Source: Desulfurococcales archaeon (GTDB lineage Archaea; Thermoproteota; Thermoprotei_A; Sulfolobales; Desulfurococcaceae). From it: a stretch of DNA of 33,815 nt. Under the pieces are notes generated by a model. It was not told the DNA's origin and searched no databases. It worked only from the letters and a program-made list of their open reading frames with translations. Made by a program: the position numbers and the translations under genes. Below are positions 7,001 through 33,815 of the stretch, in pieces (the first letter of the stretch is position 1; the number at the start of each line of letters is the position of its first letter). The stretch covers positions 1 to 33,815 of the forward strand of contig JALVIT010000088.1 of NCBI GenBank assembly GCA_027028545.1. Reading direction: 5' to 3'.

Positions 7001-8002
7001 TTGTTGACTATAAGGATAGATATTGGTGAAGCATCCGAAGAAATACTAGAACTAGACAACTACGAGATCATGGAGGAATTCCTAGCAATACTTGAAGCTT
7101 CAGGAGCTAGTAGAGACACCATTAAAGCATATAGATCGGCGATAACAGACTTCTTAGAATACCTGGGAGATAAGCCATTGAGGGATGTAAGGCTTAGAGA
7201 TATTATAGATTGGAGAAACCATAGGTTGAGAAATGGTTTTAGGAAGGGGAAGAAGGGGGATAAGAGATCTAGAACAGTAACACTACACTACTATAACCTA
7301 TTCATAAGGAGATTCCTAAAATGGCTAGGTATAAGGATCAGGGTTCCAAACGTTAAGAAGCCTCCGAGGAAGATAGAGGTCTTAACGGATGAAGAGATCG
7401 AGAAGCTATATAGAGCTGTAAGGGATCCACTGGATAAACTAATACTAGACATACTACTAGACACAGGGCTTAGGAGTAGGGAACTGATCAATCTAAGGGT
7501 TGAAGACATAGACTTCAAAGAAGGCGTTATAACGGTTAAGGAGGCGAAATATGGTAAGGAGAGAAAGGTACTAGCAACGAAAAACACACTAGAAGAGCTG
7601 AGGATGTGGATAAAACTGAACAATATGAAGAAGGGGGATAAGGTAGTACCATTAACGTATAGTGGACTATACAAAAGGATTAAGAGGATGGCGAAGAGAG
7701 CTGGGATACCTATAGAGAAGATACACCCCCACATACTAAGACACACATTCGCAACAAGGGCGTTAAAGAAGGGTATAAACATATTCTCACTACAAAGACT
7801 ACTAGGACACACAGACATAAAGACAACACAGATCTACACCCATCTAACAATAGAAGACATCAAGAAGGAATACCAAACACACCTAGATAATATAATAAGA
7901 TGTCCAAACTGTAGAAGGGAGATACCCAGCTATGCATTATTCTGCCCGTACTGCGGCTACTCCTTAAATAATAAGAAAGAGGTTGAGGCTACAATAGGAT
8001 AA
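7001..8002 (+). CDS. Xer-type tyrosine recombinase with C-terminal zinc ribbon
   Basis: LLDTGLRSRELINLRVEDID, HPHILRHTFATRALKKG, LLGHTDIKTTQIYTHLT catalytic motifs. C-terminal RCPNCRREIPSYALFCPYCGYSL. TTG start preceded by AGGGGGG. Confidence 0.92.
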   Translation: MLTIRIDIGEASEEILELDNYEIMEEFLAILEASGASRDTIKAYRSAITDFLEYLGDKPLRDVRLRDIIDWRNHRLRNGFRKGKKGDKRSRTVTLHYYNLFIRRFLKWLGIRIRVPNVKKPPRKIEVLTDEEIEKLYRAVRDPLDKLILDILLDTGLRSRELINLRVEDIDFKEGVITVKEAKYGKERKVLATKNTLEELRMWIKLNNMKKGDKVVPLTYSGLYKRIKRMAKRAGIPIEKIHPHILRHTFATRALKKGINIFSLQRLLGHTDIKTTQIYTHLTIEDIKKEYQTHLDNIIRCPNCRREIPSYALFCPYCGYSLNNKKEVEATIG

Positions 8003-19692: not shown

Positions 19693-22600
19693 CTAGACAC
19701 CTCCCATAAGCTTTTTATACTCGTCGCGGATATTCTTGAAGATCTCTTCAAAGCGTGGCTCGAAGCCCTTATTTGGAATCTCCTTCATACGTGCTATTAG
19801 AATCCTTGAATGCAGCTTCCTAATATCTTCAACTAATATCCCTCTCCGGATAGCCTTTAAGCCTAGATCGTAGAATAGTAGTATAGCCTTCATCATCAAC
19901 ATAGCCTTCTTCGGCGGACAATAAGTGTCTACATCATGGAAGGCGTTCTGCTGTAGGAAGTCCTCCCTAATCATACGGGCAACCTCTAAAACCAGTTTAT
20001 CCTCCTCGGGGAGGGCTTCAGCACCTACGAGTCTTACAAGCTCTTCGAGCTCAGCCTCTTTCTGAAGGATTGCTAACGCCTTCTCACGTAGACTCCTCCA
20101 CTCCGGATCAATCTCCTCCTCCCACCATTTAGATACATTATCAACGTATAGACTATAGCTGATCAACCAGTTGATCGCTGGATAATGCCTCCTATAAGCT
20201 AGGTTCACATCCAAGGCATAAAGTGCACGGACAATCCTCAATGTAGACTGGGTTACAGGCTCGCTGAAATCAGCACCTGGTGGTGATACAGCACCCATAA
20301 TCGTTAAACTACCAGTCCTCTCAGGCATACCCAGTGTTCTAACATATCCACTCCTCTCATAGAAGCTGGCCAGCCTTGATCCTAGATATGCTGGATAACC
20401 CTCCTCACCCGGCAACTCCTCCAATCTACCACTAATCTCCCTCATAGCTTCAGCCCATCTACTAGTGGAGTCTGCAACCATTAATACGTGGTAACCCATA
20501 TCCCTAAAGTATTCACCAATAGTTGCTCCAAGGAAAACACTCGTCTCACGAGCGGCTACAGGCATATTACTCGTATTCGCTATAAAAACACTCCTCTCAA
20601 CCAGTGGTTTACCAGTCCGTGGATCAACAAGCCTCCTAAAACTATGAAGAGCATCAGCCATCTCGTTTCCTCTTTCACCACAACCAACATAGATCGCAAT
20701 ATCGACAGCACTCCATTTCGTCAATTGCTGCAAGGTAACAGTATTATGGAATATTGCTGGTATACTACCACCTATAAAGTTATGATATTCCTCGACAGTT
20801 AGATCATATACGGGAGTCTTCTTCTCGATAACACTGATCTCCTCAACCTTATCCAATGCAACATATTTCATAGCCGATAATATCCTTTCTAAAGTATCTA
20901 GTATAGCAGTGTTTATCTTCTTCCTCTTCATCAAGACTAGACTATTAGCAGTATTCACCAGTTTACGGAGGCCATAACTAGTAATATTTTCACCGCCATA
21001 TATTTGATTACCTATATGAACCCCCAGTTTCTCAAATTCCCTTTTCGATGCTATCATGTAGAGTTTTCTGAGAAGTCTCGGCGATAATGGTATAGTTTCA
21101 CGCTTTAATCTATTCCTTCCCATTTTACTTGTGATATATCTTCGTATTTTCTCTACCTTATCTATCGATGGTGCATTTCGTAGAACAATATTATAGAATT
21201 TCTCCAATTCACTTAATCCAGTAATCTCTAACCTATGTCCCCCCTCAACTATAGAGTAGAGTATCCCCAATCGTGTGAGTATATATGCTAATCCACTGAT
21301 TAGATTCTTAGAAGCACTATAGAATTCGAGTGTATTACCGCTGAACCCGCCATCTCCCAGATAATACCCCCTCAGAAAACTTATGATGATATTATTCGGC
21401 GACTTAAATACATAGCCTGGTACGATGGCATTATGGGATTTTCTGCGTGTCGGCATACCTAGTAGATGTAGGAATCTCGATAAGAGACTTGAATAGATTT
21501 CAACACAATATACTGTATGGCATTTCTTCTCTCTAGCGTCTATGTTGAATAATGATTTGGCTAATTCTCTAAACCTCTTTCTTAGAATCTCATTATTATT
21601 GAAGAATAGGATCCTTCTATTAATGATTGAACCATCGGATATTAATAAGCCGAGGAATTCTGCTAATTTCTCACTCATTTCATGTGGTATCTTGATTCTT
21701 TTCCTACTCCTCTTTAATCCAAGGTCTTTTGGATAACTTATTTCTCCATATCTCCTACGTAAAGATATTATTAGTTTCAATGGAATAGATCGTTCGGCAT
21801 ATGCCAGTGTTTTAATAGTAGCCTTAGACAACCCTGTCTCTCTACTAAGCTCTAATATTTCGTAGTCACTCATATCTCTTAGAATCCTTCTAACCACATT
21901 GTTCACGTTTTCATCCCGGCTCATAACATCATCGTATTCAGCTAGTTTATCTATTGGTAGAATCGGTGTCTTCTGTGGATTGAATGGTATCCTACGTGGT
22001 ATTACGATATAATCCATCGGTGTAATCCTATATGCTTCTACAAACTCTATATATCCATCCGGATTAAATACTGGTAATTTATGTATAGGGGTTATCTCTA
22101 TCACTCTACCACTAGCAGTCTTTATCCTAACTACCTTATTGGTATATCCCCGATAGACGTGGGTGATGCGTGCTTTCACGAATCTCTCTCCATTAAACGC
22201 GAATACGTGGAGATCCTTATCTCTAGCATCAATTATTTCCTCATCCAACGATAGATCCGGTTTACCGTTTTTAACTTCCTTAAATAATTCATCAATAGCT
22301 ACAATACGTCCATCATCCAGCAATACAGGGGTTCCAGGTAATACGCATTTACCAGTGCCGAAACCGCCTGGTATTGCTGCTTTTCCTCCCTTTGCTAGTG
22401 GGAAGAAGAAGTCTATAACTCTCTGTCCTGTTATTAGTAGTTCTGAGGGTTCTAGTTTCTCCCTGTAAGGTCTTGGTTTTCTAACTGGCCATTTTTGGAG
22501 CATTGCTATATCCTTGTCTCCTATCCTAGCTATCGGCTCTGTTATGGTGTAGTCTCCTTCACCGGCTAACTCCTTGATTTCTCCATGTATATCCGGTGGG

Positions 22601-23052
22601 ACCATTATGTAGTGTCTAACTGTTTCCGATTCATCGACATACCCTATAATATCTCCCCCACCAACCTTCTCCCCGATCTTAGCTGTCGGTATGAAATGCC
22701 ACTTCTTATCCCTAGGTAGTGGTGCAACCTTAACACCCCTCTTAATGAAGAAGCCTACAAGCTCCTGAAGAATTGGTAGGGGTCTCTGAATACCGTCGAA
22801 TATAGATGATATAAGCCCCGGACCCAGCTCGGCAGCTAATGGATACCCAGTACCATATACTGGTTCGCCAACCCTTAACCCTGTTGTATCCTCGTAAACC
22901 TGTATTATCGCCTTATCCCCCTCAATACCAATGATCTCACCTATAAGCCTATCATTTCCAACCTCTACAACCTCGTAAACCTTACTACCACGCATATTCT
23001 CAGCTATTACAAGGGGTCCTGAAACCCTATATATCGAACCCTTAACACCCAT
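19693..23052 (-). CDS. atpA: A-type ATP synthase catalytic subunit A, intein-containing
   Basis: GGFGTGK | intein | [10 protein letters not shown] Walker [48 protein letters not shown]. 1119 aa precursor. Confidence 0.98.
20743..22347 (-). mobile_element. Intein with LAGLIDADG homing endonuclease inserted in the atpA Walker A motif
   Basis: Starts [14 protein letters not shown], ends [15 protein letters not shown] followed by Thr. 535 codons. [14 protein letters not shown] and [14 protein letters not shown] dodecapeptide motifs. Confidence 0.96.
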
Positions 23053-30265: not shown

Positions 30266-30284
30266 TAATCGGTTTAAATAAGTC
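30266..30284 (+). promoter_or_regulatory. Candidate BRE/TATA promoter for 30309-33815
   Basis: CTAATCGGTTTAAATAAG about 35-40 bp upstream of the start at 30309. Confidence 0.3.
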
Positions 30285-30308
30285 TATAGATTTAAATGGA
30301 GGATATAT

Positions 30309-31616
30309 ATGCTTGAACAAAGGATAATGGGAATTGATAGGTCCAGACTGAAATCATATGTGCATGAATTACTCAGTTTCTTATATAGATTTAGGAATAG
30401 AATAGTTTCTAGAATAGATTTTATAAAATATGTATATAGATCAGAGCTGGAGTTATTCATAGATTCCCTAACAAATGTGTATAGGTTGGGATATTATAAT
30501 AATATCGCTAATGACGTCCTAAACACCATGTCAAACCTCGGAGAAAACTATGTGAATACAAGGATAATACAGAGCTATATTAAGAGATTAATGAAGAGTA
30601 GAGTTGTTCCTGTTGCCAAGATAAACTATTTAGCGATCGGGCTATTTATATTAATAATACACATACCTAGAGAGATTAAACCATCTAATATACCATATAG
30701 GGAATGGCTACTATACTACTCCATGACACTAGAACCCTATGGTACTCTTCTAGTCTATTATATACCCATATCCTATCTAGACTATCTAGTATCATCTATA
30801 AAGAACCAGATTATGAAAAACGGTGACGGCATAAAAGTTTATCTATTTGAAAAGGGTGAAAGATTACAACCGTGCTTTAGTAATATGTGTTGGAAACTTC
30901 AACATACAACAGATCACATATATCATCTCTTCACTGGTTATAAATATGATGAACTTAAAAACATATATACAAATATAGAAAAACTACATACGAAATTAGA
31001 GGAGAAAGATAATTTTGCCAATATGAGGCTTAAACCAAACGATCTCATAGACTTAATACTACTTAAAGAATTCCAATACAATGCATTTAAACTAGTCACG
31101 GATATTTCCAAAGAGTTCAGCATACCATATAGATCGGTTAAAAAACATCTCGAAAAACACCTTATAAAATGGAAACTAATTGAGGGCATATTCTTACCAC
31201 TCAACATATTCACACCCCTTATAAGGAAGTATAAGTTGATCTATATGTCTTTTAGAGACCCAGAGAGCTATTGGAGAACCCTACTATTTTTCAAGAATAT
31301 CGCATATACAATCAGCATCTATAGAAATATAGGATTAACATATGAGAACAAACTAGATCTAACGGATAATTCTGAGCATGACATGCTAATAACAATACTT
31401 GAACCAATGGAGAGGGAATACGAGCTATACAGATTTATATATAAAGAGTCAGCAAACATCGGTCTAGAAGAATTCCAAGTATTCAACCCATCTATAACAT
31501 CATCAATGAAGTACAGTATACCCTATACAAACTTCGATCAAGAAGCTAAGGATTGGACTATAAATACTGAAGAGACTTATAAATTATATCTAAGGAGGAT
31601 ATCGGCTAGACTCTAA
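30309..31616 (+). CDS. Hypothetical protein with possible HTH region
   Basis: 435 aa. LVTDISKEFSIPYRSVKKHLEKHLIKWKLIEG is HTH-like. Confidence 0.6.
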   Translation: MLEQRIMGIDRSRLKSYVHELLSFLYRFRNRIVSRIDFIKYVYRSELELFIDSLTNVYRLGYYNNIANDVLNTMSNLGENYVNTRIIQSYIKRLMKSRVVPVAKINYLAIGLFILIIHIPREIKPSNIPYREWLLYYSMTLEPYGTLLVYYIPISYLDYLVSSIKNQIMKNGDGIKVYLFEKGERLQPCFSNMCWKLQHTTDHIYHLFTGYKYDELKNIYTNIEKLHTKLEEKDNFANMRLKPNDLIDLILLKEFQYNAFKLVTDISKEFSIPYRSVKKHLEKHLIKWKLIEGIFLPLNIFTPLIRKYKLIYMSFRDPESYWRTLLFFKNIAYTISIYRNIGLTYENKLDLTDNSEHDMLITILEPMEREYELYRFIYKESANIGLEEFQVFNPSITSSMKYSIPYTNFDQEAKDWTINTEETYKLYLRRISARL

Positions 31617-31649
31617 ACATTAATCAACTCCTATACTGGAGGGATATAG

Positions 31650-32780
31650 ATGTATTATACAAAGATAGTTTACCCGGAATTTTCAATATTTCTAAGAATA
31701 AGCATAATACTAGTATTACTGATATTAAGCATCGGATTATATTATGGAACAATAGCCGGAATAAACATATTAGAATTATACAATAATATTATACAACAAA
31801 TACAAATTCTGAATAATCCGTCAATCATAGATATGATTATCCAACTAATACTAGCACTATCAATAATAGTCGCAAACATTGCCAAAAAGGGAATATTTGC
31901 CGGGCTGGTTAAGGGCTTACACGTATACATAGTAGTGATCCTAATACTCTCATTACTCAACAACATTTACCAATTAATCGCGATCGGTGAAAATATAGAC
32001 ATTATAAGATATAATGTAGTCTTCATAACGATACTAGTAGTTAACATAGTTTTAATGATTAAATACCCAACCCTATCAGCGACAGCAAAGATCATCGATG
32101 AGGAGAAGGGTGGTGTAAAATATATGGATAATGAACCAGTGGTTCTTGATAAGAAACAATATGTTGTCTTAGATGTTATGGGGGATGTTGAGAGGGTCAA
32201 GATGGAATATGATGAAAACATGGTTAATATAAAGGAGGTGAATACACTAACTGGTAAGAGAATAATCCTAAAACCAATATCATTGATCACATCAGAGTTC
32301 AAACTGTTATATGGGGATAAACTATTATTAAGCTTCAGCTTAAAACTTGGCAGGATCAATACGAGAAAGCTAACATATATTGTTGTATTTAATGATGACG
32401 AAATAGGACGTGAAGAATACAGTGTTGAGGAGACTAAGACACTTATAAACTCCTCGTATCCAATAATAAGATCAGTTGTTTCGAGAATGGGTATCGATGA
32501 AGAAGATATAGGTGAGATACAATTCTACGATGGCAAGGGGAGATTAATACCAGGAAACACACCGATCTACATGATCGATACAGACACGATCACCTTGAAG
32601 ATATACACTGTGGAGAAACATCTAGAACTACTCAAATACTATAAAGTAGAGGATATCATGAAGCTATGGGAGAAGCTTATGAAGAGATTGGAATATCTAG
32701 ATATGGTATCTAAGGCCCTCGGTGATGAAATAACGAACAATATTGCGACGGGGATTGCCCTGATGAAGAATTGGTGGTAA
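31650..32780 (+). CDS. Membrane-anchored protein with ubiquitin-like beta-grasp region
   Basis: About four N-terminal TM helices, a beta-rich middle, then LTYIVVF...IGEIQFYDGKGRLIPGNTPIYMIDTDTITLKIYTVE, which follows the ubiquitin pattern. Confidence 0.65.
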   Translation: MYYTKIVYPEFSIFLRISIILVLLILSIGLYYGTIAGINILELYNNIIQQIQILNNPSIIDMIIQLILALSIIVANIAKKGIFAGLVKGLHVYIVVILILSLLNNIYQLIAIGENIDIIRYNVVFITILVVNIVLMIKYPTLSATAKIIDEEKGGVKYMDNEPVVLDKKQYVVLDVMGDVERVKMEYDENMVNIKEVNTLTGKRIILKPISLITSEFKLLYGDKLLLSFSLKLGRINTRKLTYIVVFNDDEIGREEYSVEETKTLINSSYPIIRSVVSRMGIDEEDIGEIQFYDGKGRLIPGNTPIYMIDTDTITLKIYTVEKHLELLKYYKVEDIMKLWEKLMKRLEYLDMVSKALGDEITNNIATGIALMKNWW

Positions 32781-32784
32781 GAAT

Positions 32785-33815
32785 ATGATAATAGTATTAG
32801 ATGGAGCATTAAAATACAATCTAGAATCCTCAAAAGCGGTTCTAATAACCAAGAAGGGTAGGGAGAGCCCTAAAGCTAGGAAACATATGATTGTCGGAGA
32901 CGTGGATATTTATAGGACAAGCTACCTCAGAACACCCCTCGGAGAAACCGATGTAATACCCCTATACTACAACCTCGGAAAAAACTATCTAGCATCTCTA
33001 AGAATACCAGATAAGAATGTGATAATCCTAGCAAATCTATCCCAAGGTTTAGATATAGGATTATCAATATATCTACTGGAAAAGATCAGTGGTCTACGTG
33101 ATCTCGAAGAAGTAGTCCTTATAGGGATCGTGCCCGCAACTAGTAGAACGACGATATTATCAAGAATATACTCCTGGTTATTGATCACTGGCGTATATGA
33201 TATATTTCTAAATAGTAGAAAGGAGGGTTTATTCAAACTTATACTGGTTGATGAAAATATTCCTCCGCAATTATCGACATTACTCGTAAATATTGTTGAG
33301 GAGGGGGTTCTGAGAAATATTTATTCAACATTAGAGTTAAGGCTGAAGAGATACATCCTTCCCGTAATAGATACGAGGTTGATCCTTAGATTTATGGTAA
33401 ACTATGCGATGCTCGAATCGGTTGATCGGGAGTATAAAACCATACTAGTATTACTTCACCACCTATTAGATAAAGCACCATCAGAACTATGGGAGTATTT
33501 TAGGAGTGAAGAAAATATACAAAGAATTAGAGCCTTGAAGTATAGGTTAGAACATAATAGGAATAATAGGATGAAGATAGGTGAAGTTATACATAAAATA
33601 GGTAGGAGGATCTATCTGGAACCTAAATATACAGAACCACTAATAGATCCCTTAAACATGGCTAAATACATGTTATCACTTGAAGGCCTATCAAAGATTT
33701 ATATGAAGAATGAAATAGTAGAGAAGATTAGAGGCATAGTGGAGAACATAGAAGATCTAGATGTTGAGAGGATTACAAAAATACAAATCATGTATCCACC
33801 CCTAGGGGGATTAGG
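32785..33815 (+). CDS. Partial ORF (at least 343 aa, open at the right edge), possible degenerate tubulin/FtsZ-like protein
   Basis: Manual translation MIIVLDGALKYNLESSKAVLITKKGRESPKARKHMIVGDVDIYRTSY... open without stop to 33815. ATG 5 bp after the previous stop. Missing from the ORF track. Confidence 0.75.
   Translation, partial: MIIVLDGALKYNLESSKAVLITKKGRESPKARKHMIVGDVDIYRTSYLRTPLGETDVIPLYYNLGKNYLASLRIPDKNVIILANLSQGLDIGLSIYLLEKISGLRDLEEVVLIGIVPATSRTTILSRIYSWLLITGVYDIFLNSRKEGLFKLILVDENIPPQLSTLLVNIVEEGVLRNIYSTLELRLKRYILPVIDTRLILRFMVNYAMLESVDREYKTILVLLHHLLDKAPSELWEYFRSEENIQRIRALKYRLEHNRNNRMKIGEVIHKIGRRIYLEPKYTEPLIDPLNMAKYMLSLEGLSKIYMKNEIVEKIRGIVENIEDLDVERITKIQIMYPPLGGL

Follow-up and report, generated by a model that had tools for sequence, protein, structure and literature searches.

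What could three closely spaced genes at the end of a Desulfurococcaceae contig encode, when the central product is predicted to join membrane helices to a ubiquitin-like domain? The window analysed here is the whole of contig G000:C88 (33,815 bp), from a metagenome-type genome of this family. The original prediction proposed a membrane-associated machine of which only part was visible. We examined the conservation of the cluster, the predicted structure of its three products and their resemblance to known systems.

Organization of the locus

Genes A (30309-31616, 435 aa), B (31650-32780, 376 aa) and C (32785-33815, 343 aa in the window) all lie on the plus strand, with spacings of 33 bp between A and B and 4 bp between B and C, confirming the arrangement and coordinates first reported. 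The promoter thought plausible at that stage is also supported by the consensus reading of the sequence: the putative promoter region of A (30270..30302, plus strand) comprises a BRE/TATA-like element, CGGTTTAAATAA (30270-30281), and a Shine-Dalgarno-like GGAGG (30298-30302). Shine-Dalgarno-like sequences can also be read ahead of B and C.

Gene C is cut at the contig end, in agreement with the view that the cluster runs off the right edge, and its homologues in relatives are about 465 aa long. Contig G000:C156 carries a 69-aa stretch resembling the end of C, and after it a CDP-alcohol phosphotransferase gene and, farther on, a partial HerA-like gene. Because of this match and the neighbouring phosphotransferase, the cluster most likely continues on G000:C156; if the two contigs are joined, about 67 residues of C are missing between them. 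This probable continuation contig also carries a 489-aa ORF (L084, 733-2202, minus strand) between the CDP-alcohol phosphotransferase and HerA-like genes. Elsewhere in the window, the gene for the V-type ATPase catalytic subunit A (19693-23052, minus strand) includes a LAGLIDADG intein (residues ~243-770 of 1119), and a tyrosine recombinase (phage integrase family) whose C-terminal part resembles a zinc ribbon is encoded at 7001-8002 (plus strand).

Distribution and inheritance

A first search identified B in ten further genomes, and A and C were then read beside it. The A-B-C order is found in 11 Desulfurococcaceae genomes including that of the window, several loci being cut by contig ends, and B and C are adjacent in every locus where both ends are visible. 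The phyletic profile, which had been suggested as a check on the cluster, thus shows its order kept in the ten further genomes. Since homologues of all three genes (23-37% identity) occur there in the same order, the ORFs can be taken to be real genes. Profile searches of 229 class genomes confined B and C to Desulfurococcaceae, and outside the family C gave at most weak fragments (E ~1e-3) among 398 phylum genomes. Relatives of A are present in 89 of the 229 class genomes.

Genomes G001 and G008 represent two more genera and carry a diverged A adjoining the Nudix-side genes described below. In G001 this is followed by a protein matching B at 96% (hhalign); the highly diverged B-like protein adjoining the diverged A there (L085, 2925-3713, plus strand) is cut by the contig end. 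In G008 the neighbour is a cut-off transmembrane protein without a profile match. Both contigs stop too early to show C. A weak match to B in G032, covering 60 aa with internal stops, was discarded.

The cassette occupies a defined position. To its left are a Nudix gene, a gene of 122 aa and the V-ATPase operon; to its right are an optional AP-endonuclease-like gene, a CDP-alcohol phosphotransferase, HerA and NurA. In many cassette-free relatives the Nudix and AP-endonuclease-like genes are direct neighbours, leaving a clean empty site. The locus is chromosomal, not mobile, and the cassette was found in two genomes assembled as one contig each (1.57 and 1.58 Mb). A HerA tree places all ten sampled carriers, together with one long-branched non-carrier, apart from ten non-carriers, with two label changes; neither G001 nor G008 could be placed in it. 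This topology is compatible with vertical inheritance and few gains or losses.

HerA and NurA are also encoded by genomes that lack the cassette and are therefore not considered parts of the module. The ATPase, vWA or secretion partners which had been suggested accordingly do not belong to it. In the literature, insofar as our incomplete search covered it, we found no description of the A-B-C cassette.

Protein B, a predicted membrane-anchored adaptor

The description of B as a protein of about four transmembrane helices with a beta-grasp region is borne out by an AlphaFold2 model with DSSP assignment (mean pLDDT 75, pTM 0.49), by Foldseek and by hydropathy profiles. The model predicts helices at residues 9-36, 57-80, 82-112 and 116-138 (the segment 9-138 corresponds to 31674..32063, plus strand), and four hydrophobic segments are observed in all 11 homologues. 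They are followed on the same strand by a predicted beta-sandwich domain (residues 142-233, 32073..32348), a ubiquitin-like beta-grasp domain with strand-strand-helix-strand-strand order (residues 238-320, 32361..32609) and a C-terminal segment (residues 323-376, 32616..32777) composed of a long helix (323-373), the coiled coil of this arm, and an -NWW end. The last two residues are -WW in 9 of the 11 homologues, 8 of which end in -NWW. Positive charge is richer at the N-terminus, in the second loop and on the C-side across the 11 homologues. This distribution favours an N-in/C-in topology, and hence a cytoplasmic C-terminal arm.

Foldseek matches of B include ISG15, FAT10 and bacterial Ubl proteins, interspersed with superantigens and other unrelated proteins rich in beta structure; in the model B carries a ubiquitin-like beta-grasp fold. 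The association of such a domain with transmembrane helices might suggest that B belongs to a ubiquitin-conjugation or type VII-like secretion system. This we regard as very improbable. The ubiquitin-like domain is internal and no homologue has a diglycine end, from which it follows that B is not a conjugated modifier. Pfam searches gave no match of B to YukD or related families, the module includes no E1, E2, JAB or secretion ATPase, and its HerA/NurA neighbours exist without the cassette. The conjugation and secretion reading of B is thus largely excluded, and the secretion, ubiquitin-conjugation and defence readings of the whole cassette were rejected. From its sequence features B looks like an adaptor rather than a modifier.

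Protein A, a predicted tandem Lrp-like winged-helix protein

Searches of Pfam, NCBIfam and PADLOC returned no convincing match for A, B or C, and the flanking genes had been held to be unassignable by eye. That judgement stands in part only: A is predicted to be a tandem Lrp-like winged-helix protein and C to have a tubulin/FtsZ-like fold. For A, the best PDB match of the profile is LrpA, a weak one (E=0.03), and nothing else came out of the PDB sequence searches with the three proteins. Comparison with one Lrp protein by hhalign gave 89.5% over model positions 42-125, and comparison with tandem-Lrp homologues gave 100%. Several A homologues also match HTH families. On these profile similarities A appears to be one of a broader group of tandem Lrp-like winged-helix proteins, whose members elsewhere include Lrp relatives without B or C, and it is probably a DNA-binding protein. 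It may be merely a regulator. While related by profile to the Lrp/AsnC-type archaeal regulators, A differs in having two winged-helix repeats and in being linked with B-C at a single locus of the carrier genomes.

Protein C, a predicted tubulin/FtsZ-like fold

The full-length homologue of C in L013 was modelled from a nine-sequence alignment (mean pLDDT 74, pTM 0.71). Its best PDB match in Foldseek is TubZ (4ei7, E=1.9e-4), and all 50 of the 50 matches listed are TubZ, PhuZ, CetZ, FtsZ or tubulin, with TM-scores mostly below 0.5. Against predicted viral structures, FtsZ, tubulin-like proteins and PhuZ are among the first ten matches, several of which are unnamed; the probability is 0.97-1.00 through the tenth match and then falls to 0.07. 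A comparison with FtsZ by eye follows the succession strand, T4-like loop, helix, strand, helix, strand through C; helices H1 and H2 are apparently lacking. Residues 83-92 (ANLSQGLDIG; 33031..33060, plus strand) fall at the position of the tubulin T4 loop, the register being set by eye from the order of secondary structures; the T4 signature is lost, and the D and G of this stretch are invariant in the nine homologues.

The sequence comparisons gave no such signal. The GGGTG(S/T)G GTP loop is absent from all nine C homologues. No profile link to FtsZ, FtsZl1 or CetZ-like proteins was obtained with hhalign, with which the positive controls worked, and in a targeted profile comparison of the T4-S6 segment the score did not exceed that of shuffled columns. 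Neither a Pfam tubulin-superfamily match nor a PDB sequence-search match was found for C. Similarly, no Pfam tubulin was detected in the window's own genome or in the other sampled genomes of the family. The Desulfurococcaceae are not known to have tubulin relatives.

The tubulin match could be a coincidence arising from a shallow model, C being another Rossmann-like sensor or enzyme domain that forms a membrane-coupled sensor pair with B, with A an ordinary Lrp-type regulator of their expression. The missing GTP loop, the lack of a sequence-level link to the tubulin superfamily, the moderate confidence of the C model and the Lrp relatives of A that occur without B or C would all agree with such a pair. 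The Foldseek matches of C nevertheless point in both libraries to a single superfamily, beyond which they fall off abruptly, and the B model, handled likewise, gave no tubulin fold. We consider this alternative possible but rather unlikely. A tubulin-like predicted fold is probable for C. Because the loop is absent, H1 and H2 are apparently lacking, the TM-scores are mostly low and the profiles are unlinked, our claim is limited to the predicted fold and does not extend to membership of the superfamily. In their C-terminal part most C homologues also have a CxxC motif plus two more cysteines, perhaps a metal site; the last two cysteines are missing in the Staphylothermus-type homologues.

Proposed organization of the module

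We tentatively favour, as a plausible rather than a firm explanation, a discrete and vertically inherited chromosomal module, restricted to one branch of the Desulfurococcaceae, in which a membrane-anchored scaffold is built around a degenerate tubulin-fold protein. B would be held in the membrane by its four helices and would display a cytoplasmic adaptor arm composed of the beta-sandwich, the ubiquitin-like domain, the coiled coil and the -NWW end. C, with its predicted tubulin/FtsZ fold and without the GTP-binding loop, may dock on this arm and would be a subunit for structure or assembly, not a canonical GTPase. A may either control the operon or tie the complex to DNA. The contact between B and C, the loss of GTPase function and the role of A are inferred from these predictions. 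Of the original proposal, the co-conserved three-gene unit and its predicted membrane-anchored ubiquitin-like protein are upheld, and the machine itself is a reasonable reading of them.

A stronger version can be envisaged, in which C truly belongs to the tubulin superfamily and can assemble although it has no classical GTP loop, while B anchors it through the ubiquitin-like domain and A ties it to DNA. The cassette would then constitute a new membrane-DNA cytoskeletal system of archaea whose genomes showed no canonical tubulin, which we judge improbable. If the favoured scaffold is correct, the combination of a degenerate tubulin-fold protein, a ubiquitin-like membrane adaptor and a DNA-binding-type protein would broaden the known uses of the tubulin fold, and the cassette would offer a small, testable system in Desulfurococcaceae.

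Relationship to known systems

The module is set apart from FtsZ, FtsZl1 and TubZRC as a new variant. One comparison is with the type III partition system TubZ-TubR-tubC, since the predicted fold of C matches TubZ best and a winged-helix protein is encoded in the same gene cluster; TubR binds the centromere through its winged helix (PMC9178275). In a DNA-positioning or segregation system of this type, A would be an adaptor like TubR, C would resemble TubZ and B would serve as the membrane anchor. Yet the GTP loop which drives TubZ is absent from C, A is Lrp-like, no centromere-like repeats were seen by eye in the 44-178 bp before A, the locus is chromosomal rather than mobile and the cassette has an additional integral membrane protein. 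Such a system therefore seems to us a distinctly unlikely reading.

In archaeal division, FtsZ with its membrane anchor SepF (PMC8178401) also combines a tubulin-fold protein with a membrane-linked partner. B differs in being integral, with four transmembrane helices and a ubiquitin-like arm, and sequence comparison does not identify C as FtsZ. Division in Crenarchaeota is described as relying on ESCRT homologues, not FtsZ (PMC8178401). A Snf7-family (CdvB-type) match was obtained in 15 of 40 genomes of the family, that of the window's genome being above the curated cut-off and most others below it. The eukaryotic cofactors TBCB and TBCE, which handle tubulin, have a ubiquitin-like domain as B does, and a TBCE-containing complex (9edr) is among the Foldseek matches of B. 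This match reflects the shared ubiquitin-like fold, whereas the cofactors have no transmembrane helices, no operon and another domain set.

The FtsZl1 family, with the membrane-remodelling operons predicted for it (Makarova and Koonin 2010, PMC2875224), resembles the module in that a diverged protein of tubulin-superfamily type is encoded with membrane proteins. One crenarchaeal tubulin-like protein, SSO1376 of Sulfolobus, has been reported and is a member of FtsZl1 (PMC2875224). Proteins of this family, unlike C, keep the GGGTG(S/T)G loop and are far larger (811-1051 aa here). They are often encoded with vWA, GTPase or kinase genes, none of which is present in the cassette. There is no profile match to FtsZl1 from C or B, and B shows no similarity to the transmembrane proteins encoded beside FtsZl1 genes.

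Two further observations concern CetZ-like and FtsZl1-type proteins. A CetZ-like protein of 429 aa (L139, 6425-7714, minus strand) matches FtsZ at 97.5% by hhalign, yet a GGGTG(S/T)G loop of the usual kind was not found in it. In four loci of other Thermoproteota (L133, L134, L135 and L137) the FtsZl1-type gene adjoins a gene for a large multi-transmembrane protein of ~800-860 aa, and in three of them (L133, L135 and L137) also a gene of 383-459 aa, suggesting a possible conserved FtsZl1 neighbourhood.
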